A DNA stretch of 64,000 bases from Sphingopyxis alaskensis RB2256. GTDB taxonomy: Bacteria > Pseudomonadota > Alphaproteobacteria > Sphingomonadales > Sphingomonadaceae. Of the stretch, positions 19,416 through 30,989 are shown in pieces. The position numbers and the translations under genes are program-made. The stretch's first letter is position 1. Each line of letters opens with the position of its first letter. The stretch lies in NCBI RefSeq assembly GCF_000013985.1, contig NC_008048.1, forward strand, positions 1,364,001-1,428,000. Reading direction: 5' to 3'. The notes under the pieces are model-generated. The model was not told the DNA's origin. It worked only from the letters and a program-made list of their open reading frames with translations, and searched no databases.

Positions 19416-20417
19416 ATGATGATAGCGCCTGTGGGGGGCGCGAAGCATCGGCTTCTTCCCTCTTGTTCATTCATCGCGCTGCTCGCCGCGCTTGCGCTGC
19501 CGATGCAGGCAAACGCCGCCGGAACGCGCGCCGGGTCGACGATCAGCAATACCGCGTCCGCCAGTTTCGATACCGGCGGTGGGCCGACGACGATCGACTC
19601 GAACCGCGTTGACCTGCTCGTCGACGAACTGCTCGACGTCACCGTCGATTCGGGCAATCCCGCCGACGTGCCGACCACGCCGGGCGCCACCGGACAGGTG
19701 CTGACCTTCTCGGTCACCAACAATGGCAATGGCGTTGAGGATTTCGCGCTGAGCACGGTCGCGAATGCGGGCGGCGACGATTACGACCCGGCAGTAACGC
19801 AGGTCTATCTCGACAATGGCGACGGTCTGTTCGATGCCGGAACCGACACGCTCTATATCGCGGGCGTCAACGATCCGACGCTCGATCCCGACGAGAGCAC
19901 CACGGTGTTCGTCGTGACGACGACGCCCGGCGCGGTCGTCGACGGCAATCGCGGCATCGTCAGCCTCGCCGCGGCGGCAAAGACGGGAACCGGCGCGCCC
20001 GGCGACAGTTTTGCCGGTCAGGGCGAAGGCGGCGGCGACGCCGTCGTCGGTTCGACCGGCGCCGATGGCGAAGATGCCGGCGCCTTCGTCGTTTCGGCCG
20101 CGACGGTCACGCTCGTCAAATCGGCCAGCATCACCAATCCGCTCGGCACCGCCGACCCGATCCCCGGGGCGACGATCACTTATACGATCGTCGCCACCGT
20201 TGCGGGCAGCGGTTCGGTGAACGGGCTCGCAATCACCGACAATATCCCCGCCGACACCAGCTATATCCCCGGCTCGATCACGCTCGGCGGTAGCGGACTG
20301 ACCGACGCGGCCGATGCTGATGCGGGCGATTTCAACGGCACGCGGATCAATGTCGCGCTCGGCACCGTCGCTGGCGGCCAGACGCGCACCGTCACCTTCC
20401 AGACCCTGATCGACTGA
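19416..20417 (+). CDS. Secreted DUF11-type repeat protein 1
   Basis: A 333-residue exported protein: signal peptide ending MQANA/A, then the motif STISNTASASFDTGGGPTTI followed by NRVDLLVDELLDV, an internal acidic beta-rich region (residues about 90-215) and a C-terminal DUF11-like domain (VTLVKSASITNP ... ATITYTIVATVAGSGSVN ... ITDNIPADTSYIPGSITLGG). DUF11 domains are immunoglobulin-like folds found in long cell-surface fibres and S-layer-like proteins. Very low Lys and high Asp/Thr/Gly content fits an extracellular protein. It opens a four-gene cluster. Confidence 0.8.
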   Translation: MMIAPVGGAKHRLLPSCSFIALLAALALPMQANAAGTRAGSTISNTASASFDTGGGPTTIDSNRVDLLVDELLDVTVDSGNPADVPTTPGATGQVLTFSVTNNGNGVEDFALSTVANAGGDDYDPAVTQVYLDNGDGLFDAGTDTLYIAGVNDPTLDPDESTTVFVVTTTPGAVVDGNRGIVSLAAAAKTGTGAPGDSFAGQGEGGGDAVVGSTGADGEDAGAFVVSAATVTLVKSASITNPLGTADPIPGATITYTIVATVAGSGSVNGLAITDNIPADTSYIPGSITLGGSGLTDAADADAGDFNGTRINVALGTVAGGQTRTVTFQTLID

Positions 20418-20428
20418 TGGAGATGCCC

Positions 20429-20893
20429 ATGCGCCCCGCCCTCCTGCTTATGCTCGCAGCCGCGCTTCCCGGTCCGGCCTTTGCCGCCAATCAGGTTGCG
20501 CTCGACAATCTTGTTTTCGTCGAGCGTGTATCCACCGACGCGGATGGCAAGCAGCACATCCTGCTCGAAGAACCGAAGGTCGTCATTCCCGGCGACCGGC
20601 TCGTCTTCGTGCTCAATTATCGTAATGCCGGCGCACAGCCCGCCGACAAGTTCGTGATTACCAATCCGATGCCCGCCGCGGTCCGTTTCGCCGATGCCGG
20701 CGACACGCAGCCTTTGGTTTCGGTCGATGGTGGCACACAGTGGGGACGGCTTGGCGAGCTTTCGGTCGCTATGCCCGACGGCACGCGCCGCGCCGCGCAA
20801 CCCGCCGACGTCACGCATATCCGCTGGGCCTTTCAAAAGCCGATTCCGGCGGGCGCCACGGGCAAGCTCATGTTTCGGGGAATCGTCAAATAG
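20429..20893 (+). CDS. Secreted DUF11-type small protein
   Basis: A 154-residue exported protein: signal MRPALLLMLAAALPGPAFA, then one beta-sandwich domain of the DUF11 kind (LDNLVFVERVSTDADGK, VIPGDRLVFVLNYRNAGAQP, FVITNPMPAAVRFADAGDTQ, and a closing WAFQKPIPAGATGKLMFRG). The start was set at ATG 20429 because GGAG precedes it by six nucleotides; ATG 20417 overlapping the upstream stop is the alternative. Its partner genes lie directly on both sides. Confidence 0.75.
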   Translation: MRPALLLMLAAALPGPAFAANQVALDNLVFVERVSTDADGKQHILLEEPKVVIPGDRLVFVLNYRNAGAQPADKFVITNPMPAAVRFADAGDTQPLVSVDGGTQWGRLGELSVAMPDGTRRAAQPADVTHIRWAFQKPIPAGATGKLMFRGIVK

Positions 20894-20915
20894 CGACTGC
20901 ATAATAACCGCTTAA

Positions 20916-20945
20916 CGATTGCCAGCGGTGGGGAATGGGCAATCG
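20916..20945 (+). repeat. Hairpin in the DUF11 cluster spacer
   Basis: CGATTGCC and GGCAATCG form an 8-bp perfect stem around a 14-nt loop in the gap before the third gene. There is no T-run. It could be a processing site or a weak transcription barrier; no firm call is possible. Confidence 0.4.
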
Positions 20946-20968
20946 AACCAAACCAAGGAGCTTCAGCT

Positions 20969-22033
20969 ATGACCAGCAAGCTGAACACCGTGGGTTTCAT
21001 CGGTCTGGCGGCGATATCGAGTCTCGCCGCCACGTCGGCACTTGCTGCCGGCACGACCGCAGGAACCACGATCACCAATACTGCCACTGTCGATTTTCAG
21101 GTCGGTGGCGTCGCCCAGGTGCAACAATCCGCGTCGGATAATTTCACCGTCGACCGCAAGATCAACCTGCTCGTCGAAGAAGTCGGCACCGTCACCACCA
21201 ATGTTGTTCCGGGCCAGACCAACGCCGTGACGACGTTTCAGCTCACCAACAGCTCGAACGAAGTGCTCGATTTCGCGCTCGTTGCCTCGCAGATCGCGGG
21301 CGGCACTGCCGCGCATGGCGGCACCGACAGCTTCGATGCCACCAATGTTCGTATCTATCGCGACAACATATCATCGGGAACGGTCGGCAGTTGGGACGCG
21401 GCCGACACGCTGATTTCGGGCTATATCGACGAACTCGTTGTCGATACCGCGATCCGGCTGTTCGTCGTCGCCGACATTCCGGCGGCGCTTGCCAACAATG
21501 CCGTCGCCGGGGTGACGCTTCGCGCCACCGCGCGCGAGGGCGGCACCGCGGGCAGCCAGGGCGCGGCGATCACCGAAACCACCGGCGCAAACACCGCGGG
21601 CAAGGACACCGTCTTTGCCGACACCGCGGGCGTCACGGGCGACGCCGGGCGCGACGGATCGCATAGCGACAATGACGATTATACGGTGCAGACGGCGACC
21701 CTGACGGTCACCAAGACCAGCCGCGTCATCTCTGACCCGTTCAACAATACGACCAATCCGAAACTGATTCCGGGCGCCGTTGTCGAATACTGCATCGCGG
21801 TGGCCAATTCGGGCAGCGCCGACGCGACCTCGGTCGCGATCAACGATCCCGTGCCGGGACAGCTGAGCTTCAGCGCCGGAACGATCCGGCTGGGCGGCAC
21901 CGTCACTGCGGGCACATGCAACGCCGACGGCGCCGTGGGCGGCAGCTATTCGGCGCCCAACGTGTCGGGGACGATCGCGACGATCGCGGCCGGGGCGACG
22001 CGCACCCTCGTTTTCCGCGCCACGGTCAACTGA
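20969..22033 (+). CDS. Secreted DUF11-type repeat protein 2
   Basis: A 354-residue exported protein that resembles the first protein of the cluster in layout. The signal ends SALAAG; the motif TTITNTATVDFQVGGVAQV is followed by DRKINLLVEEVGTV, a middle beta-rich region, and a C-terminal DUF11-like domain (LTVTKTSRVISDPF ... PGAVVEYCIAVANSGSADATS ... VPGQLSFSAGTIRLGG). AAGGAG lies 10 nt before the ATG, so it has a strong ribosome site. Two Cys (EYCIAV, GTCNAD) may form a disulfide. Confidence 0.8.
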   Translation: MTSKLNTVGFIGLAAISSLAATSALAAGTTAGTTITNTATVDFQVGGVAQVQQSASDNFTVDRKINLLVEEVGTVTTNVVPGQTNAVTTFQLTNSSNEVLDFALVASQIAGGTAAHGGTDSFDATNVRIYRDNISSGTVGSWDAADTLISGYIDELVVDTAIRLFVVADIPAALANNAVAGVTLRATAREGGTAGSQGAAITETTGANTAGKDTVFADTAGVTGDAGRDGSHSDNDDYTVQTATLTVTKTSRVISDPFNNTTNPKLIPGAVVEYCIAVANSGSADATSVAINDPVPGQLSFSAGTIRLGGTVTAGTCNADGAVGGSYSAPNVSGTIATIAAGATRTLVFRATVN

Positions 22034-22050
22034 CCGCGTAACGGACGGAC

Positions 22051-22084
22051 GCGGCGGCGCCCCGGCTCGACCGGGCGCCGCCGC
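22051..22084 (+). repeat. Strong hairpin before the barrel gene
   Basis: GCGGCGGCGCCCC and GGGCGCCGCCGC form a stem of about 12-14 bp with one bulge around a short loop, 17 nt before the ATG of the 1702-residue gene. It ends with CTTCCTTC rather than a clear T-run. It may lower expression of the large outer-membrane gene relative to the secreted proteins upstream. Confidence 0.55.
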
Positions 22085-22100
22085 TTCCTTCGGGGCTGGC

Positions 22101-25100
22101 ATGGCGATCCGCGATACATATTTCGGCCTTTTGAGCGCGCTCGCGGCGGTCGTCCTGATGCCCGCGACACCGGCGGCGCGCGCGCAGGTGATCAGCAACA
22201 CCGCATCCGCCGAATGGACGCACGACGGCCAACGCGGCGCGGCGCTGTCGAACCGCGTCGATGTGACCGTCGTCCCGCGACCATCCGAACCCCCGCGCAT
22301 CGCAACCTATCGCCTGACGAATGGCGGCGGCGACCGCTCGGTGCCGCTCGCGCCGACGCAATGCGTCCGCGCGGGGAACGGGACTGTCGGAGCGCTCAGT
22401 ATCGCGACCGCAGCAACGATCCCGCTTTCCGGGGTTTATGCCGGAATCTCCACCGCCCCGGCCTCGCTTCAGCGCAGCGACAGCTTTCGGGCAGGTGAAA
22501 TGCTCGTCGTCGGCGTGACGCTCGCCGCCGCCAACGACGACCCGCAGGTCCGCGATACCCTGCCCGTCGTGATCGAGCTGGAGAATGGCGACCGCGAATC
22601 GATCATCCTCACCGAAACCACCGCGAACAGCGGCGAGTTCGTCGGTTTCATCAACACGATCGGCGTGCCGCCCGCCGTGACGCAGGGCGATTGCCGCCTG
22701 TCGGTCGATCCCGGCGCGGCGCTGACGCTGCGCGTGTCCGATCTGGGAGACGCCCGCCTCGTCGCACTCGCCACGATCGACTTCCTCGTCGACCCCTTCG
22801 GCATCGTGTTCGACAGCGGCGACGGCGCTCCCGTGCCGGGGAGCCGCGTGACGATCGTCGACGCCGCAACGGGCCAGCCGGCCGACGTGTTCGGCGACGA
22901 CGGCGTCTCGACTTATCCGTCCAGCGTCATCACCGGCCAGCGCGTCACCGACTCGGGCGGGACCGTCTATGACTATCCGGCGGGCGACTATCGCTTTCCC
23001 TTCGTCGCGCCCGGCAGCTACCGCCTCATCGTCGAGCCCCCTGCGCCCTTTGCCGCGCCGTCGGCCGCCAGCCCCGCCGACCTTGCCGCCTTTCGCCGTC
23101 CCGACGACGGCCAGCCCTTTGCGATCAGCGACGCAAGCTATGGCCGCGCCTTCACGCTGAACAGCCCCGCCCCGGTGCGCGTCGACATTCCCGTCGACCA
23201 GCCCGGCCTGCCGCTGGTCCTGCGCAAGACGACCTCAACGCAGGTCGCGGTGCCGGGCGATGTCGTGCAGTATCGGATCGAGGTGGCCAATCGCGATTCG
23301 CGGCGGACCACCGGCGCGGTGACGGTGCGCGACGTCCTGCCCGCCGGAATGCGCCTGCGCGCCGACACGGTGCGTGTCGACGGCGTTCGCGTCGATGCCG
23401 CGGTCGAAGCTGACGGCCGCGCCTTCACCGTCACCCTGCCCGGCATTGCCGCCGCGCAGTCGGCGCGGCTAACCTATCTCGCCGAAGTCGTCGTCTCGGC
23501 GCAGCCGGGCAGCGCGCTCAACCGCGCGAGCGCGACCGACAATCGCGGAACGACAAGCAACGTCGCCGAAGCGACGATCGCGATCAAGCGCGACCAGCTC
23601 GGCGACCGCATGACGATCATCGGCCGCATCACCGACGGCGGCTGCGCCGTCGATCCGGGCAAGGCCGATGGCATCATGGGCGTGCGCGTGATGCTGCAGG
23701 ACGGCAGCTACACCGTCACCGACGAGGACGGCCGCTATCATTTCGAAGGCGTGCTTCCCGGCCTGCACGTCGTGCAGATCGATCCCTCGACGCTGCCGCT
23801 CGACCGCGCGGTCGTCGATTGTGCGCGGAGCACGCAAAGCGCCGGCAGCGCGATCTCGCGTTTCGTCGAGGGTCGCGGCGGCGCACTGAAACGCGCCGAC
23901 TTCCGCGCCGCCGCCAGCGCCCCGCGCGCCGCGCCCGCCACGGCGGCGCGTCCGGCAGCGACGCCGCTTTCCGATCCCGAAGCCGCTGGCGCCCATCGCG
24001 ACTGGCTCACCGGGCAGGAACCCGGCATCGGCTGGCTCTTCCCCGCTACCGACCATAATCCGCGCGCCAGGGCGATTCGCGCTGCGATCAAGCACGCGCC
24101 GGGACAGATCGTCACGCTGCGCGTCAACGGCCAGATCGCCGACCCGCTGACCTTTGAAGGCGTCAGCAAATCAGCCGACGGCGCCGTGGCGGTCAGCCTG
24201 TGGCGCGGGCTCGAAATCCGCGAGGGCGACAACCGCCTGGTCGCCGAAGTGAAGGACGCAAACGGCATAACCGTCGAAACGCTCGAACGCACCGTCCATT
24301 ATTCGATCACCCCGATGCGCGCCGCGCTGGTCCGGGAAAAATCGGTGCTCGTCGCCGACGGCGTCACGCGCCCGGTGATCGCGGTGCGCCTGACCGACCG
24401 CGACGGCAAGCCGATCCGTGCCGGACTGACCGGCGATTTCAGCGTCCCCGCCCCCTATTATCCGGCGGTCGAAGCCGACGCGCAGCAGGCGCGGCAGCTG
24501 TCCGGCCTCGAACGCGCACCGCCAGTGTGGAAGGTCGATGGCGACGACGGCATCGCCTATATCGAGCTGGAGCCGACCACCGCCTCGGGTACGCTCGCGA
24601 TCGACTTTCTGTTCCGCGACGATCGGGTCACGCACAAGCAGGTGATCGAAACCTGGCTCGATCCCGGCGACCGTCCGTGGACCGTCGTCGGCTTCGCCGC
24701 GGGCACGCTGGGATACAACACGCTCGATGACCGGATGGAGCCGGTCGCCGAAACGCTCGACGACCTCAATGCCGACGCGCGCCTAGCACTCTACGCCAAG
24801 GGCCGCGTGCGCGGCAAATGGCTGATGACGCTGGCCTATGACAGCGACAAGGAAGCGGACGATGCGCGCTTCGGCGGCGTGATCGACCCGCGCGCCTATT
24901 ACACCATTTACGCCGACCGCAACGAGACGCGCTACGACGCGGCGTCGGTGCGCAAGCTTTATCTCCGCCTCGAACGCCCGCAATTTTATGCGATGTTCGG
25001 TGATATCGAAACGGGGATTTCGGAACCCGAGCTTGCCCGTTACCAGCGCGCGCTGAACGGCGGCAAGGCCGAATACCGCGGCCGAAATATCGCCGCGACC

Positions 25101-27209
25101 GCCTTTGTCGCCGACACCCCCTATCGCTTTCGCCGCGACGAGATTCAGGGCAATGGCCTGACCGGCCCCTATCAGCTCGGCGCGCGCGACATATTGCCCA
25201 ACAGCGAGCGGATCGTCATCGAAACGCGCGACCGCCTGCACAGCGAACGCATCGTCGAGAGCGTCTCCCTCTCGCGCCATGTCGATTACGACATCGACTA
25301 TCAGTCGGGCACGATCCGCTTCCGCGCGCCGGTGCTCAGCCGTTCGTCCGCCCTCGACCCGCAATTCATCGTCGCCGAATATGAAGTCGATGGCGTCGGC
25401 CAACGCGTGCTCAACGCCGGCGGCCGCGTCAGCTATCGCTCGACCGACGAAAAGCTGCGCGTCGGCGCGACCGTCATCCACGACGAGGATGGCAACGCAA
25501 AGACGGACATCGGCGGCATCGACGCCCGTTATCGCCCCAATATCGACACCGAAGTGCGCGCCGAACTGGCGGTCAGCGATGCGAAGGCCATGAACGGCAG
25601 CGCTGCCGCCGCTGGAACGGCAAAGGCATGGCTGATCGAGGCCGAACATCATGGCAGCACCGCCGATTTTCTGGCCTATATCCGCGAGCGCGAAGCCGGT
25701 TTCGGCGCCGGGCAGCTCAATCGCGGCGAGGATGGCACGCGCAAGTTCGGCTTTGACGCGCGGCTGCGCGCGACGCGCACATTGGCACTGACGGGCAGCG
25801 CGTGGCAGGAAGATTATCCGGGCACCGACGCGCGCCGCCGCGCCGCGCGCGCGCTGGTCGAATATGACAATGGCAGCAGCGTCGCCCGCGCCGGGCTGAC
25901 GTACGCCGACGATCGCCTGTCCGACGGCTCGCGCAATCGTTCGACCATCGTCCAGCTCGGCGCAACGCAGCGCCTGTTCGCCAAGCGCCTCGAACTCGAC
26001 GCGCAGACCGAATTTGCGCTGGGCGGCAAGGACGCCAGCGTCGATTTCCCGGCGCGGCACCGGCTCGGCGCACGCTTCGGCATCAGCCGCGACGTCAATC
26101 TCGTCGGCAGCTATGAAATCGCCGATGGCGATACGGTCCGCGCGCGCACCGCGCGGCTCGGCTTCGACCTGACGCCGTGGGTCGGCGCGCGCCTGCTCGC
26201 GACCGCGAACCGGCAGGACATCGGCGAATATGGCCCGCGCAGCTTCGCCGCTTATGGGCTGTCGCAGTCGCTGAGGCTCGGCGAACATCTGTCGGTCGAT
26301 GTTTCGGTCGACGGCAATCGCACGATCGGCGGCATCAGCGCGCGCGACGTACTGAACGCTCAACAACCGGTCGCGTCGGGCGGCTTCCTCGGCGGCAATG
26401 GCACACTGACCGAGGATTTCCTGGCGATCAGCACCGGCGCAACATACCGCGCCGACCGGTGGACGCTCACCGGCCGCGCCGAATATCGCGACGGCGAACT
26501 CGCCAATCGTTACGGCCTGACGCTCGGCGGGCTGCGCCAGCTTGGCGAAGGCCGCGCCCTGGGCGCGCTGTTCACCTATGCACAGGCGAGCGGCAGCGGC
26601 ACGGTGCCGACGACCGAAGTGATCCAGTTCGAAATGAGCTGGGCGCACCGCCCCGCCGATTCGCGGATTTCGTGGCTGGGCAAGGGCGAGTTCCGGTCGG
26701 ACAGGGTGCGCGACGCCGTTGCCGGACAGGCCGGGCCGATCGGCGGCGCGCTGACGATCGACGGCGATGCGACGAGCCGCCGCCTGCTGGGCAGCCTGTC
26801 GGTAAACTGGACGCCGCTTGGTGAGCGCGGCGAAGGCGGCATGTGGTACGAGCGTGCCGAGTTCGGCGTCTTCTGGGGCACGCGCTATAATTTCGACCGC
26901 TTCGGCGCCGATGATGTGAAGGGCTGGTCGAACCTGATCGGCGCCGACGTCCGCGTGGCCCTCGGCGAGCATGTCGATGTGGGCGCGTCGGGCACCATCC
27001 GCGTCGGCACCGATGCCGATACCGTCAGCTGGGCAGGCGGGCCGACACTGACGCTGGCGCCGATGAAGAATGCGAACATCACCTTGGGCTATAATTTCGC
27101 CGGCTTCCACGACCGCGATTTCGAGGATGCGCGCTTTTCGCGATCGGGCGCCTATGTCACCTTCAAGCTGAAGTTCGATCAGACGAGCTTTGCGGGGTTG
27201 GGGCTGTAG
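22101..27209 (+). CDS. Giant DUF11/Cna-B outer-membrane protein with predicted C-terminal barrel
   Basis: A 1702-residue exported protein closing the cluster. After the signal (ending AARAQ) it has the same VISNTASAEW ... SNRVDVTVV opening as its neighbours. A DUF11 domain lies at about 369-500 (LVLRKTTSTQVAVPGDVVQY ... ATDNRGTTSNVAEATI) and a Cna-B/SdrD-like domain at about 503-570 (GVRVMLQDGSYTVTDEDGRY). A low-complexity Ala linker and an Ig-like part follow. From about residue 895 to the end, alternating aromatic and charged strands typical of a beta barrel predominate (KWLMTLAYDSDKE, AYYTIYADRNETRYDA, YDIDYQSGTIRFRAP). It ends FKLKFDQTSFAGLGL, so the last residue is not the usual Phe or Trp. 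Function is unknown; anchoring or exporting the DUF11 proteins is my inference. Confidence 0.8.
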   Translation: MAIRDTYFGLLSALAAVVLMPATPAARAQVISNTASAEWTHDGQRGAALSNRVDVTVVPRPSEPPRIATYRLTNGGGDRSVPLAPTQCVRAGNGTVGALSIATAATIPLSGVYAGISTAPASLQRSDSFRAGEMLVVGVTLAAANDDPQVRDTLPVVIELENGDRESIILTETTANSGEFVGFINTIGVPPAVTQGDCRLSVDPGAALTLRVSDLGDARLVALATIDFLVDPFGIVFDSGDGAPVPGSRVTIVDAATGQPADVFGDDGVSTYPSSVITGQRVTDSGGTVYDYPAGDYRFPFVAPGSYRLIVEPPAPFAAPSAASPADLAAFRRPDDGQPFAISDASYGRAFTLNSPAPVRVDIPVDQPGLPLVLRKTTSTQVAVPGDVVQYRIEVANRDSRRTTGAVTVRDVLPAGMRLRADTVRVDGVRVDAAVEADGRAFTVTLPGIAAAQSARLTYLAEVVVSAQPGSALNRASATDNRGTTSNVAEATIAIKRDQLGDRMTIIGRITDGGCAVDPGKADGIMGVRVMLQDGSYTVTDEDGRYHFEGVLPGLHVVQIDPSTLPLDRAVVDCARSTQSAGSAISRFVEGRGGALKRADFRAAASAPRAAPATAARPAATPLSDPEAAGAHRDWLTGQEPGIGWLFPATDHNPRARAIRAAIKHAPGQIVTLRVNGQIADPLTFEGVSKSADGAVAVSLWRGLEIREGDNRLVAEVKDANGITVETLERTVHYSITPMRAALVREKSVLVADGVTRPVIAVRLTDRDGKPIRAGLTGDFSVPAPYYPAVEADAQQARQLSGLERAPPVWKVDGDDGIAYIELEPTTASGTLAIDFLFRDDRVTHKQVIETWLDPGDRPWTVVGFAAGTLGYNTLDDRMEPVAETLDDLNADARLALYAKGRVRGKWLMTLAYDSDKEADDARFGGVIDPRAYYTIYADRNETRYDAASVRKLYLRLERPQFYAMFGDIETGISEPELARYQRALNGGKAEYRGRNIAATAFVADTPYRFRRDEIQGNGLTGPYQLGARDILPNSERIVIETRDRLHSERIVESVSLSRHVDYDIDYQSGTIRFRAPVLSRSSALDPQFIVAEYEVDGVGQRVLNAGGRVSYRSTDEKLRVGATVIHDEDGNAKTDIGGIDARYRPNIDTEVRAELAVSDAKAMNGSAAAAGTAKAWLIEAEHHGSTADFLAYIREREAGFGAGQLNRGEDGTRKFGFDARLRATRTLALTGSAWQEDYPGTDARRRAARALVEYDNGSSVARAGLTYADDRLSDGSRNRSTIVQLGATQRLFAKRLELDAQTEFALGGKDASVDFPARHRLGARFGISRDVNLVGSYEIADGDTVRARTARLGFDLTPWVGARLLATANRQDIGEYGPRSFAAYGLSQSLRLGEHLSVDVSVDGNRTIGGISARDVLNAQQPVASGGFLGGNGTLTEDFLAISTGATYRADRWTLTGRAEYRDGELANRYGLTLGGLRQLGEGRALGALFTYAQASGSGTVPTTEVIQFEMSWAHRPADSRISWLGKGEFRSDRVRDAVAGQAGPIGGALTIDGDATSRRLLGSLSVNWTPLGERGEGGMWYERAEFGVFWGTRYNFDRFGADDVKGWSNLIGADVRVALGEHVDVGASGTIRVGTDADTVSWAGGPTLTLAPMKNANITLGYNFAGFHDRDFEDARFSRSGAYVTFKLKFDQTSFAGLGL

Positions 27210-27317: not shown

Positions 27318-28643
27318 TCAATCCGCGAACAGCAACACCGGCGTCTCGATCAGCTTCTTCAATGCCTGGACATAGCTCGCGGCATCCCAGCCATCGACAA
27401 CGCGGTGATCGCAGCTGATCGACAGGTTCATGAGCTTGGCGCGGCGGATGTCGTCGCCGTCGAATATCGGCCGCTCGACGATCTTGTTCGGGCCGATGAT
27501 CGCGACCTCGGGGCGGTTGATCACCGGCGTCGTCGCGATTCCGCCGAGGGGGCCGAGCGACGTCACGGTCAGCGTGCCGCCGGTCAACTCCTCGACCTTG
27601 ACCTTGCCGGTGCGCGCGGCTTCGGCGAGGCGGGTGATTTCGCTGGCAAGCTGCCAGACATTCTTGTCCTGCGCGTCGCGGATAACGGGGACCATCAGGC
27701 CGGCGTCGGTCTGCGTCGCCATGCCCAGATGTACCGCGCCGTATCGCGTCACCACGCCCGCTTCGTCGTCATAGCGCGCGTTGATCATCGGAAACTCAGG
27801 AATGGTGCGGCAGATCGCGACGATCAGGAAGGGCAGCATCGTCAGCTTGGGCCGGCTGCCGCGATTGGCATTGAGGTCCGCGCGCATCTCTTCCAGCGCG
27901 GTGACGTCCATTTCCTCGACATAGGTGAAGTGTGGGATCGCGCGCTTCGACGCCGCCATATTCTCGGCGATCCTGCGCCGCATGCCGATGACCTTGACCG
28001 GCTCGTCGGCGCGCGCGCGGCTCGCGCCGGGGGCGTGATAGCCTTGCCCCGCGCTGTAGCGCCGATAGGCGTCGAGGTCGGCGTGGCGGATGCGGTCGCC
28101 GTCGGATTGGACCAGCGACAGGTCGATGCCCAGATCCTTCGCACGCGCGCGGACGGCGGGGGATGCGAGGACAGCCTTTTTTCCCCTCCCGCTTGCGGGA
28201 GGGGTCGGGGGAGGGCTTGTTTCGGAAACCACCGCAGGAGCCTCGACAGGCCCTCCCCCAGCCCCTCCCCCAGCCCCTCCCGCAAGCGGGAGGGGGATCT
28301 TCTCGGCATCCGAAACCTCCTCCGTCCCCGGCGTCTCCACGGCCATCTCGTCCTCGACCGGCGTGTCGGCGGGCGGTGCATCCAGCGCGCCGTCACCATC
28401 GTCATCAGTCTCGATCACCGCCAGCGTCGATCCGATTGGAATGAGGTCGCCGACCTCGCCCGCCAGTTCGACCACGACGCCCGACACCGGCGATTCCATC
28501 TCGACGGTCGCCTTGTCGGTCATCATGTCGGCAAGCTGCGCATCTTCCTCGACGCGCTCGCCCACCTTGACGTGCCAGGCAACGATCTCGGCCTCGGCGA
28601 TACCTTCGCCAATGTCGGGCAGACGGAATGAATAGCGGGCCAT
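27318..28643 (-). CDS. bkdB: Branched-chain 2-oxoacid dehydrogenase E2 (dihydrolipoyl acyltransferase)
   Basis: A 441-residue E2 core. Lipoyl domain at residues 1-78 with the lipoylated Lys44 in MMTDKATVEM; peripheral-subunit-binding domain at about 158-192 (ASPAVRARAKDLGIDLS); catalytic domain from about 215 with the active-site HRVVDGWDAA near the C terminus. Residues 116-154 of the linker are encoded by a palindromic repeat (28183-28297) and read PLPLAGGAGGGAGGGP and ETSPPPTPPASGRGKK. Four nucleotides separate it from E1 beta. No E3 gene follows, so a shared lipoamide dehydrogenase must serve it. Confidence 0.93.
   Translation of the reverse strand: MARYSFRLPDIGEGIAEAEIVAWHVKVGERVEEDAQLADMMTDKATVEMESPVSGVVVELAGEVGDLIPIGSTLAVIETDDDGDGALDAPPADTPVEDEMAVETPGTEEVSDAEKIPLPLAGGAGGGAGGGPVEAPAVVSETSPPPTPPASGRGKKAVLASPAVRARAKDLGIDLSLVQSDGDRIRHADLDAYRRYSAGQGYHAPGASRARADEPVKVIGMRRRIAENMAASKRAIPHFTYVEEMDVTALEEMRADLNANRGSRPKLTMLPFLIVAICRTIPEFPMINARYDDEAGVVTRYGAVHLGMATQTDAGLMVPVIRDAQDKNVWQLASEITRLAEAARTGKVKVEELTGGTLTVTSLGPLGGIATTPVINRPEVAIIGPNKIVERPIFDGDDIRRAKLMNLSISCDHRVVDGWDAASYVQALKKLIETPVLLFAD
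28183..28297. repeat. Double-hairpin palindromic element inside the E2 gene
   Basis: The same architecture as the element at 8464-8569: hairpin CCCTCCCGCTTGCGGGAGGG, then TCGGGGGAGGG, a variable centre ending CCTCGACAGG, then CCCTCCCCCAGCCCC (partly duplicated here) and the inverse hairpin. It lies wholly within the coding region of E2 without breaking the frame, in the flexible linker between the lipoyl and binding domains. Confidence 0.85.
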
Positions 28644-28647
28644 GGCG

Positions 28648-29682
28648 TCAGTCCTTCAAAATCTTGGTCAGCGCGGTCGCAATGCGCACCGGGCCGGGGA
28701 AATAGGCCCATTCCAGGCTGTGCGGATAGGGCGTGTCGAAACCGGTGACGCGCTCGACGGGCGCCTCGAGATGATAGAAGCAGCGTTCCTGCACCAGCGC
28801 GGCGAGTTCGGCGCCAAAACCCGACGTGCGCGTCGCTTCGTGGATGATCAGGCAGCGGCCGGTCTTTTTCACCGACGCCTCGATCGCCGCTATGTCGAGC
28901 GGCAACAGCGTGCGCAGGTCGAGGATTTCGGCGTCGATCCCCATTTCCTCGATGATCGTCTTTGCGACATGAACCATTGTGCCATAGGCGAGTACGGTCA
29001 CCGCTTCGCCCTCGCGCACCGTCGCCGCTTTCCCCAGGTCGATGCGGTAATAGCCCTCGGGCACCGCACTGGCGTCATGCTTCGACCAGGGTTCGACCGG
29101 GCGATCGTAATAGCCGCTGAACGGGCCGTTATAGATGCGCTTGGGTTCGAGGAAGACGACGGGGTCGTTATCCTCGATCGCCGCGATCAGCAGCCCCTTG
29201 GCATCATAGGGGTTCGACGGGATCACCGTCTTGACGCCGCAGATATGCGTCATGATGCTTTCGGGCGACTGGCTGTGCGTCTGGCCGCCGAAAATCCCGC
29301 CGCCGAACGGTGTGCGCACCGTCATCGGGCATATATAGTCGTTCGCCGAGCGATAGCGCAGGCGCGCCGCCTCGCTGACGAGCTGGTCGAGCCCCGGATA
29401 GATATAATCGGCGAACTGGATTTCGGGGACGGGGCGCAGACCATAGGCGCCCATGCCGACCGCGACGCCGATGATGCCGCATTCGTTGATCGGCGTGTCG
29501 AACACGCGCGTCTTGCCATGCTTTTTCTGGAGGCCCGCGGTGGCGCGGAAAACGCCGCCGAAATAGCCGACGTCCTCGCCCATCACGACGGTCGCGGGAT
29601 CGCGTTCGAGCATGACGTCCATGGCGCTGTTGATCGCCTCGATCATGTTCATGGTTTTCGTCCGGGTTTCGGCGCTCATCAT
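28648..29682 (-). CDS. bkdA2: Branched-chain 2-oxoacid dehydrogenase E1 beta
   Basis: A 344-residue transketolase-like beta subunit. Marks: VVMGEDVGYFGGVFRAT, DTPINECGIIGVAVGMGAYG, the cation/ThDP site region MTVRTPFGGGIFGGQTHSQS, and a C-terminal domain with LDLRTLLPLD and HEATRTSGFGAE. It decarboxylates branched 2-oxoacids with E1 alpha. The start is ATG 29682, overlapping the E1 alpha stop, and gives MMSAETRTKTMNMIEAIN; the long reading frame upstream is alpha-gene shadow. Confidence 0.96.
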   Translation of the reverse strand: MMSAETRTKTMNMIEAINSAMDVMLERDPATVVMGEDVGYFGGVFRATAGLQKKHGKTRVFDTPINECGIIGVAVGMGAYGLRPVPEIQFADYIYPGLDQLVSEAARLRYRSANDYICPMTVRTPFGGGIFGGQTHSQSPESIMTHICGVKTVIPSNPYDAKGLLIAAIEDNDPVVFLEPKRIYNGPFSGYYDRPVEPWSKHDASAVPEGYYRIDLGKAATVREGEAVTVLAYGTMVHVAKTIIEEMGIDAEILDLRTLLPLDIAAIEASVKKTGRCLIIHEATRTSGFGAELAALVQERCFYHLEAPVERVTGFDTPYPHSLEWAYFPGPVRIATALTKILKD

Positions 29683-30989
29683 TCGGGCTTCCAGTCGGGG
29701 CCGAACTTGGCCTCTTGCTCGGCGAGCATCTGCGCGCATTGTTCCTTGAGGTGCCAGGGCATCTCCTCGAAAACGTCCTCGAACATCGTTTCGAACGGCT
29801 GGTGCATCCCGTGACCCAATATGCCAAGCTTTTCCGACTGCTTCTGCGTCGTCTTGACCAGATCGTCGAGTTCCTTCGCCTGCGCTTCGTGGCGCGCGTC
29901 GTCCCATTCGCCAAGCGCGATCAGATGCTGCTTGAGCCGCGCGATCGGGTCGCCGAACGGCCAGGCGCTCGCTTCCTGCGCCGCGCGATAGGCGCCGGGG
30001 TCGTCCGAGGTGCTGTGCCCTTCGGCGCGATAGGTGAAATGTTCGATCAGCGTCGGGCCGTTGTTCGTCCGCGCGCGATCGGCTGCCCATTGCGTTGCCG
30101 CATAGACCGCGAGCGGGTCGTTGCCATCGACGCGCAGCCCCGCGATGCCATAACCCACCGCACGCGCCGCAAAGGTCGTGCGCTCGCCGCCGGCAAAGCC
30201 CGAAAAGCTCGAAATAGCCCACTGGTTATTGACGACATTGAAAATCACGGGGGCATTATAAACGGTGGCGAAAGTCAGCGCTGAGTGGAAATCCCCCTCG
30301 GCGGACGAGCCTTCGCCGCACCACACGGTCGCGATCCGCGTGTCGCCCTTCGACGCCGATGCCATCGCCCAGCCCACCGCCTGTGGATATTGGGTGGCGA
30401 GGTTGCCCGACACGCTGAAAAACCCATGTTCGGGCGCCGAATACATGATCGGGAGTTGCCGCCCCAACAGGTGATCGCCGCGATTCGAGTAAATCTGGTT
30501 CATCATCTGGATCAGCGGATAGTCGCGCGCGATCAAAATGCCCTGCTGGCGATAGCTGGGGAAGCACATGTCGGCGCGGTCGATCGCCATCGTCGAGGCG
30601 ATCGAGGTTGCCTCCTCGCCCGTGCATTTCATGTAGAAGCTGGTCTTGCCCTGCCGCTGTGCGCGGAACATGCGATCGTCGAACGCGCGCGTCAGCATCA
30701 TGTAACGCAGCATGGTGCGCAGCCGGTCGGGGGCGAGGTTGGGATTCCATGGCCCCTTGGCGATGCCGTCGAAATCGAGGACGCGGACAAGGCCATAGCA
30801 AAGCTCGCGCATTGCGTCGGGCCTGGTCGCTTCACCGGGACGCGGGGTCGCCTCAACCGCAGGGATTTCGATGTCGCTGAAGTCGGGCGTGTCGCCGGGG
30901 CGATAGCGCGGTTCGGGGATATGAAGCGACAGCGGCGGCAGGTTGCTCGCCGGACGCCCCTTATCCGCCCGGGCAGGCGTTTCAGGCAT
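29679..30989 (-). CDS. bkdA1: Branched-chain 2-oxoacid dehydrogenase E1 alpha
   Basis: A 436-residue ThDP-binding alpha subunit. The ThDP motif spans WCGEGSSAEGDFHSAL to VIFNVVNNQWAISS. The substrate region has SYRQQGILIARD, and the phosphorylation-loop counterpart reads YRAEGHSTSDDPGAYR. The long N-terminal arm (LSLHIPEPRYRPGDTPDFSD) is typical of branched-chain rather than pyruvate enzymes, which is why I call BCKDH. GGAAGAAG precedes the ATG. The three genes form an operon E1a-E1b-E2. Confidence 0.96.
   Translation of the reverse strand: MPETPARADKGRPASNLPPLSLHIPEPRYRPGDTPDFSDIEIPAVEATPRPGEATRPDAMRELCYGLVRVLDFDGIAKGPWNPNLAPDRLRTMLRYMMLTRAFDDRMFRAQRQGKTSFYMKCTGEEATSIASTMAIDRADMCFPSYRQQGILIARDYPLIQMMNQIYSNRGDHLLGRQLPIMYSAPEHGFFSVSGNLATQYPQAVGWAMASASKGDTRIATVWCGEGSSAEGDFHSALTFATVYNAPVIFNVVNNQWAISSFSGFAGGERTTFAARAVGYGIAGLRVDGNDPLAVYAATQWAADRARTNNGPTLIEHFTYRAEGHSTSDDPGAYRAAQEASAWPFGDPIARLKQHLIALGEWDDARHEAQAKELDDLVKTTQKQSEKLGILGHGMHQPFETMFEDVFEEMPWHLKEQCAQMLAEQEAKFGPDWKPE

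Follow-up and report, generated by a model that had tools for sequence, protein, structure and literature searches.

Chaperone-usher pili (e.g., type 1, P, and Saf) are built from subunits that carry an N-terminal donor segment as well as an Ig-like domain left incomplete at its C-terminus; their tip lacks a donor, and their outer-membrane (OM) β-barrel, exemplified by FimD with its 24 strands, contains a plug. The cells that make the archaeal thread or TasA have no OM, nor is a barrel component known for these fibres; in type IX secretion, a C-terminal Ig-like domain serves as the export signal for clients of the SprA translocon. Here, we examine a 64,000-nucleotide stretch of the Sphingopyxis alaskensis RB2256 genome (NC_008048.1, positions 1,364,001 to 1,428,000, forward strand; hereafter the window, whose numbering is used below), in which four adjacent genes, A to D, encode three DUF11-type proteins and one protein with a giant predicted barrel. 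We lean slightly towards the view that A, B, C, and D, together with an unlinked fifth protein, E, make up a surface fibre of donor-hairpin type.

Part of the features of donor-strand pili are described in PMC9715654, which also presents the archaeal thread (Saci_0406) and TasA as donor-strand chains formed without a known chaperone-usher machine, with a putative cap and self-complemented forms. The abstract of PMC7906972 gives SprA-type (type IX) secretion as restricted to Bacteroidetes. DUF11 is encountered in the stalk proteins of fibrillar adhesins, for which a two-domain DUF11 model resembles integrin alpha; these proteins emerged when adhesins of Firmicutes and Actinobacteria were surveyed (PMC9210967).

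Results

Truncated terminal domains and N-terminal hairpins

The genes and the elements within them are as follows, with the basis of each assignment in brackets.

19416..20417, + strand: gene A, candidate shaft-type subunit (hairpin plus truncated terminal DUF11), 333 aa (open reading frame [ORF], Pfam, orthologues)
19518..19631, + strand: A residues 35-72, donor-type hairpin directly after the signal peptide (sequence)
20130..20414, + strand: A residues 239-333, terminal DUF11, profile positions 4-82 of 114, then stop (Pfam)
20417..20893, + strand: gene B, 158 aa, a small hairpin-less subunit that ends in a DUF11-like domain (ORF, Pfam)
20582..20890, + strand: B residues 56-158, DUF11-like up to the C-terminus; Pfam profile positions 13-65 only, below the cut-off (Pfam)
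20969..22033, + strand: gene C, candidate shaft-type subunit (hairpin plus truncated terminal DUF11), 354 aa (ORF, Pfam)
21047..21190, + strand: C residues 27-74, N-terminal hairpin (sequence)
21752..22030, + strand: C residues 262-354, terminal DUF11, profile positions 9-84 of 114, then stop (Pfam)
22101..27209, + strand: gene D, putative OM platform or base, 1702 aa (ORF, Pfam, structure model, relatives)
22185..22286, + strand: D residues 29-62, hairpin at the mature N-terminus (sequence)
23214..23576, + strand: D residues 372-492, complete internal DUF11, profile positions 2-113 of 114 (Pfam)
23649..23780, + strand: D residues 517-560, CarboxypepD_reg/SdrD_B-like domain (Pfam)
24627..27176, + strand: D residues about 843-1692, predicted giant barrel of about 40 long strands (AlphaFold2 model)
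25155..25352, + strand: D residues about 1019-1084, small plug-like β insert in the barrel run (AlphaFold2 model)

As a preliminary description of this DNA had proposed, the four ORFs lie on one strand with little between them (A and B overlap by one base, B and C are 75 bases apart, and C and D 67), and each product starts with a signal-peptide-like N-terminus as judged by eye, in line with its claim of export. Its assignment of DUF11 to all four proteins stood in part. Against a Pfam cut-off of 24.6 bits (PF01345, profile length 114), C (36.3 bits) and D (40.5 bits) pass, and A does so as an isolated domain (27.1 bits), but full-length A (21.2 bits) and B (18.0 bits) fall below. The "Cna-B-like" domain it had placed in D is present, although its identity is CarboxypepD_reg (44.7 bits), with SdrD_B just under its own cut-off.

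Judged from sequence, the terminal DUF11 of A and of C ends about 30 profile positions early and lacks the last two strands, and B and E finish in a similar DUF11-type domain by weaker profile matches. The complete copy inside D ends in a hairpin of the type N-x-A-x-A...S-N-x-A-x-x-x-V, and in the window, the mature forms of A, C, and D all begin with a stretch of that type. The resemblance of these N-terminal hairpins to the missing end of the terminal DUF11 is partly shown. E (unlinked here), the truncation of the C-terminal domains, and the likeness of the shared N-terminal motif did not feature in the preliminary description.

Comparative counts were taken from 40 hand-picked stretches fetched around matches to the D half described below (L059-L098), among which L059-L084 constitute the window's own family (26 loci in 25 genomes). 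In a near set of 29, comprising the window and L059-L086 and thus two distant loci, a simple pattern finds the hairpin in 22/29 A, 17/29 C, and 21/29 D, with the misses mostly being variants of the pattern by eye; the single B match (1/29) lies inside the domain. Profiles trained on this set were then applied to a distant set of 80 loci, where terminal domains and hairpins occur on the D strand only (0/2381 opposite-strand ORFs). There, hairpin and terminal domain are both present in 31/33 A; C carries the hairpin in 52/57 and the terminal domain in 56/57 (46 by a strong rule, 10 by a weak rule). B displays the terminal domain in 51/52 (21 strong, 30 weak) and the hairpin in 0/52, whereas D has a terminal domain in 0/80 and a hairpin in 46 of the 57 complete copies. 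Moreover, the C-terminal end of the protein coincides with a terminal domain of common strand pattern in 30/33 A, 49/52 B, and 45/57 C. This placement (hairpin only in D, both elements in A and C, domain only in B and E), as read from the sequences, fits a head-to-tail donor-hairpin fibre.

A fifth protein and conservation of the module

Within the fetched stretches, a further protein with a DUF11-like terminal domain was found at 16 of 28 loci (L059-L086). The distant loci contain 38 further ORFs of at least 380 aa with a terminal domain; 29 are hairpin-less, and the 9 with a hairpin are A/C-sized. By Pfam, the heads of 13 E-type proteins include Ice_binding, proprotein convertase P-domain, SpaA, SdrD_B, and DUF11 copies, with two giving no match. 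In the host genome (3,373,713 bases, two contigs), the sole A-profile match beyond the cluster is E, a 660-aa protein encoded at a distance of 1.0 Mb; it combines a P-domain with two DUF11 domains, one internal and complete, the other terminal and reaching the end of the A profile. This orphan is 49-57% identical over 382-642 residues to the gene directly 3' of D in L070, L071, and L074-L077; by hand count, 35 of 40 genomes from the window's genus encode it at nearly full length. The finding of a hairpin-less orphan, as predicted, whose orthologue belongs to the operon in relatives is the strongest single argument for one shared machine. A separate 175-aa frame in the host genome (contig C2, 1678253-1678393) also matches DUF11 above the cut-off, at 31.4 bits.

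The order A-B-C-D is retained in 26/26 own-family loci, as well as in the distant L085 and L086. For 52 distant loci with 3.5 kb of upstream sequence, the order is ABCD in 33, BCD in 14, CBD in 2, and CD, BD, and D alone in 1 each. Loss of linkage in relatives, which would have spoken against the preliminary description, was not seen, and since both the order of the genes and their occurrence together are conserved, the cluster is more than chance. The 12 other fetched loci (L087-L098) were searched with the window proteins, which missed the full set there: B, D, and one frame weakly matched by A and C alike were found in L087-L090, B and D in L091 and L092, A (weak) and D in L093, and a D-like match only in L094-L098.

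At the genome level, a search with D residues 884-1702, its C-terminal half, matches 53 of 149 family genomes; 48 of these matches are strong (E < 1e-50) and 5 weak. Exactly those 48 genomes are picked by profile A3 of protein A at E 1e-20. Each has two A3 matches (A and C), save for one genome with three and G014 with four. Two complete A-B-C-D clusters lie on one contig of G014 (L072, L073), and in G105 the A orthologue is split, with an internal TGA (C1:193151-194046), with C and D present. A phylum-wide draw gave matches to the D half in 43/299 genomes, many in its first part only, and a scan of genome contigs returned at least 547 stretches related to D. Titles of the best 80 of these name gamma-, beta-, delta-, and zetaproteobacteria, Nitrospirota, and one Pedobacter; among the best 120 matches of D, named relatives are nearly all Sphingopyxis.

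Several loci displayed further features. In L094, L095, L097, and L098, smaller D-like barrels (~1100-1300 aa) adjoin giant proteins (~2000-2300 aa) that match the DUF11-like profile, a pair suggestive of a related system with two genes. A protein of 290-300 aa, by eye a cyclic-nucleotide-binding regulator, is encoded 3' of D in L087 (14351-15244), L088-L090, and L092, a group that is gammaproteobacterial-type; two-component-like genes, again by eye, lie upstream in L087.

Hairpin profile tests and the model of A

Appending a hairpin raised the Pfam DUF11 score from 27.1 to 30.3-31.0 bits for A and from 41.8 to 45.7-46.5 bits for C. Against a profile of the D internal domain, the own hairpin of A brought a mean gain of 8.7 bits, beating all 30 shuffles in 24/29 and all own sequence windows in 22/29; with a broader profile, all such windows were beaten in 24/29 A and 13/29 C of the near set. 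In the converse approach, the hairpin of the D internal domain was used as a profile, with its best position falling on the N-terminal hairpin in 24/29 near and 18/31 distant A, 6/29 near and 31/51 distant C, and 12/29 near and 29/48 distant D. Pooled, this amounts to 120/217 against ~21 expected by length, at very low bits, and the reverse search gave 21/77 against ~2 expected. The distant sets here comprise proteins already scoring at least 8 bits with the hairpin profile, minus L160; the sequences are related and the trials are not independent.

AlphaFold2 modelled A with a pLDDT of 95.8 across 299 residues, hairpin included. Because single-domain structural matches of the model start near model residue 40 (lowest 32), domain 1 of A is complete without the hairpin. 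In a Foldseek search with this model, the donor-strand pilus complex SafDAA ranked 12th, behind integrins and one viral glycoprotein. Domain 1 of the A proteins (alignment A3; window 19518-20414) also contains a D-x-N-G-N-G-x-x-D-like loop, which brings calcium loops to mind.

The predicted giant barrel of D

For the large C-terminal barrel that had been proposed in D, AlphaFold2 does predict such a structure: the model of residues 735-1702 (pLDDT 78.5, pTM 0.76) contains ~40 long strands, counted by hand from the listed elements. Foldseek placed Deinococcus SlpA (8ae1) first (E 2.1e-10), with SprA also among the matches. By sequence, D matched neither the Usher family (PF00577) nor the autotransporter barrel in Pfam at E up to 1, the latter leaving type Va membership without a match; PF00577 was likewise not detected in the whole host genome, with a positive E. 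coli control, and a Protein Data Bank sequence search with the A and D profiles yielded no match. Membership of D in the SprA/Sov family was considered and rejected, with TIGR04189 scoring 12.7 bits where its cut-off is 200 and matching only 1 of 13 diverse D proteins (E 0.0061). The C-terminal part of the plug-like insert falls inside this weak match (1052-1129).

Neighbouring genes

Pfam assigned the 12 neighbouring frames scanned to housekeeping, transport, or envelope classes (AI-2E transporter, lipoyl E2, PGK, GAPDH, transketolase, ZapA, 5-FTHF cyclo-ligase, E1 dehydrogenase, thymidylate synthase, alpha/beta hydrolase, EipA, and cytochrome b). No pilus or secretion gene was found among them, in agreement with the preliminary description. 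Genes for tkt and 5-FTHF cyclo-ligase lie near the cluster in 11/11 of L059-L069, with zapA in 8 of these, and in 0 of L070-L086. A promoter scan found no promoter, and the 3 terminator-like sites are fewer than in shuffles. A 390-aa open frame (28642-29814) adjoining the lipoyl E2 gene is probably a meaningless shadow frame.

Discussion

How might such a system operate? All components would be exported by Sec, as suggested by their signal peptides. The N-terminal hairpin of D would then complete the terminal DUF11 of the first A or C, with the hairpin of each A or C subunit in turn completing the terminal DUF11 of the next, in trans, to generate a head-to-tail chain. Because D possesses a hairpin yet no terminal domain, it is the candidate base of this chain, which it would hold at the OM, its barrel pore probably releasing the subunits; its N-terminus may be periplasmic, as in ushers, or face outwards, as in autotransporters. 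As the hairpin is absent from both E and B, these would be confined to the far end, where E may close the chain as a tip and display its head; B could be a short cap or adaptor, or else shield hairpins in the periplasm prior to export. A fibre anchored or exported by its large member, as first proposed for this cluster, hence fits the topology of hairpins and terminal domains, but secretion, polymerization, and anchoring stay conjectural. Overall, we judge the fibre plausible: it would resemble a donor-strand pilus in its working while lying, by the tests made, outside the chaperone-usher and type IX families. It is an even call whether the module represents a widespread, undescribed class of Gram-negative pilus, i.e., DUF11 subunits exchanging a two-strand N-terminal hairpin, an exchangeable tip (ice-binding, P-domain, or prealbumin-type heads), and a giant barrel uniting export pore and donor base on one chain, with chaperone-usher families not used.

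Several observations weigh against such a fibre. No hairpin was detected in 11 of the 57 complete distant D proteins, and with B and E both hairpin-less, two proteins compete for the far-end role. The appending tests are uneven: the own hairpin of C gave a mean gain of 4.3 bits and beat shuffles in 17/29 and windows in 14/29, weaker than for A; the D hairpin brought mean gains of only 2.2 bits on A and 0.7 on C, and did not lengthen the Pfam match of B; one shuffled control lost score (40.2 bits) yet also stretched the match to position 96; and the distant loci failed the test with the broader profile (median gain 0.2 for A, n=31; -0.7 for C, n=51), with a like outcome in a further run. In the localisation test, scores were very low throughout and near-set C stood at chance (6/29, expected 4.5). 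Profile-profile comparison of the isolated hairpins, which are too short for it, gave nothing of note with hhalign. Mean-field direct coupling analysis of 174 A sequences (effective number 88) placed 24 hairpin-domain 2 and 13 hairpin-domain 1 pairs among the top 300, against 91 domain 1-domain 2 pairs at similar density per possible pair, a signal at noise level. Although structural realignment of the D barrel put FimD/PapC at ranks 1-7, in favour of the fibre, the rmsd is high (8.6-10.7) and the alignment is confined to the first part of the barrel. Lastly, the PapD-like chaperone family PF00345 had no match in the host genome (E. coli control positive), and the system has no known chaperone.

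Could D instead be an OM translocon for dedicated secretion without polymers, with the C-terminal DUF11 of A, B, C, and E acting as the export signal? Such a scheme would accommodate the shared type of terminal domain and strand pattern in all four, the varied E heads (Ice_binding, P-domain, SpaA), and, for D, both the weak sequence match to SprA and the appearance of SprA among its structural matches. It leaves unexplained why A, C, and D carry a hairpin and B and E do not, and the SprA match is both far under its cut-off and limited to one of the diverse D proteins; we consider it unlikely.

The hairpin might also fill the terminal DUF11 of its own chain by circular permutation, such that A and C form a monomeric adhesive coat near D. 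The high-confidence model of A with its hairpin is what self-completion would give, and the A domain fits its own hairpin much better than that of D. However, because D offers only a hairpin and B and E only a terminal domain, some completion in trans seems to be needed, and self-complemented forms are also described for subunits of donor-strand filaments (PMC9715654). Self-completion as the whole explanation is to our minds distinctly improbable. Still smaller is the chance that D anchors a coat or S-layer-like layer that is not fibrous, a reading retained as a weak rival because Deinococcus SlpA heads the Foldseek ranking of the barrel.

With respect to the donor-hairpin fibre, no description of the system was encountered in the open-licence PMC literature searched, for which some listings were partial or broad, such that its absence from print is not established. 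Excerpts on DUF11 combined with donor strands concern F-ENA anchors rather than this system, and a passage of PMC12282271 does no more than mention DUF11. As far as these searches reach, its composition and logic are novel. If the proposal is true, proteins whose annotation now reads only "DUF11 domain-containing" or "hypothetical" would be united in a single machine, providing Gram-negative bacteria with a second route to donor-complemented fibres across the OM.

With their N-terminal donor segment, C-terminally incomplete Ig-like domain, donor-less tip, and plugged OM barrel, chaperone-usher pili (type 1, P, Saf) parallel the arrangement proposed here, in which the hairpin, the truncated DUF11, the candidate tip, and the predicted barrel with its plug-like insert would take these places. 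They differ in that no usher or PapD-like family match occurs in the host genome, nor any in D; moreover, the putative donor here is a two-strand hairpin rather than one strand, D itself bears a donor, and its predicted barrel strands far exceed the 24 of FimD. Ushers, though they head the structural realignment of the D barrel, show no sequence homology to D. The archaeal thread and TasA resemble the proposed fibre as chains of donor-strand subunits for which no chaperone-usher machine is known; their subunit family appears to be different, with the term "DUF" not occurring in PMC9715654. SprA is comparable in its giant barrel, its clients with C-terminal Ig-like domains, and the weak match in D at 1052-1129, but that match reaches 12.7 of the 200 bits needed and no hairpin logic is known for the SprA system. 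Finally, the DUF11 stalks of fibrillar adhesins belong to the same domain family, and the model of A likewise resembles integrins; here, in contrast, the domains are distributed over separate subunits with truncated ends, encoded alongside a predicted barrel.

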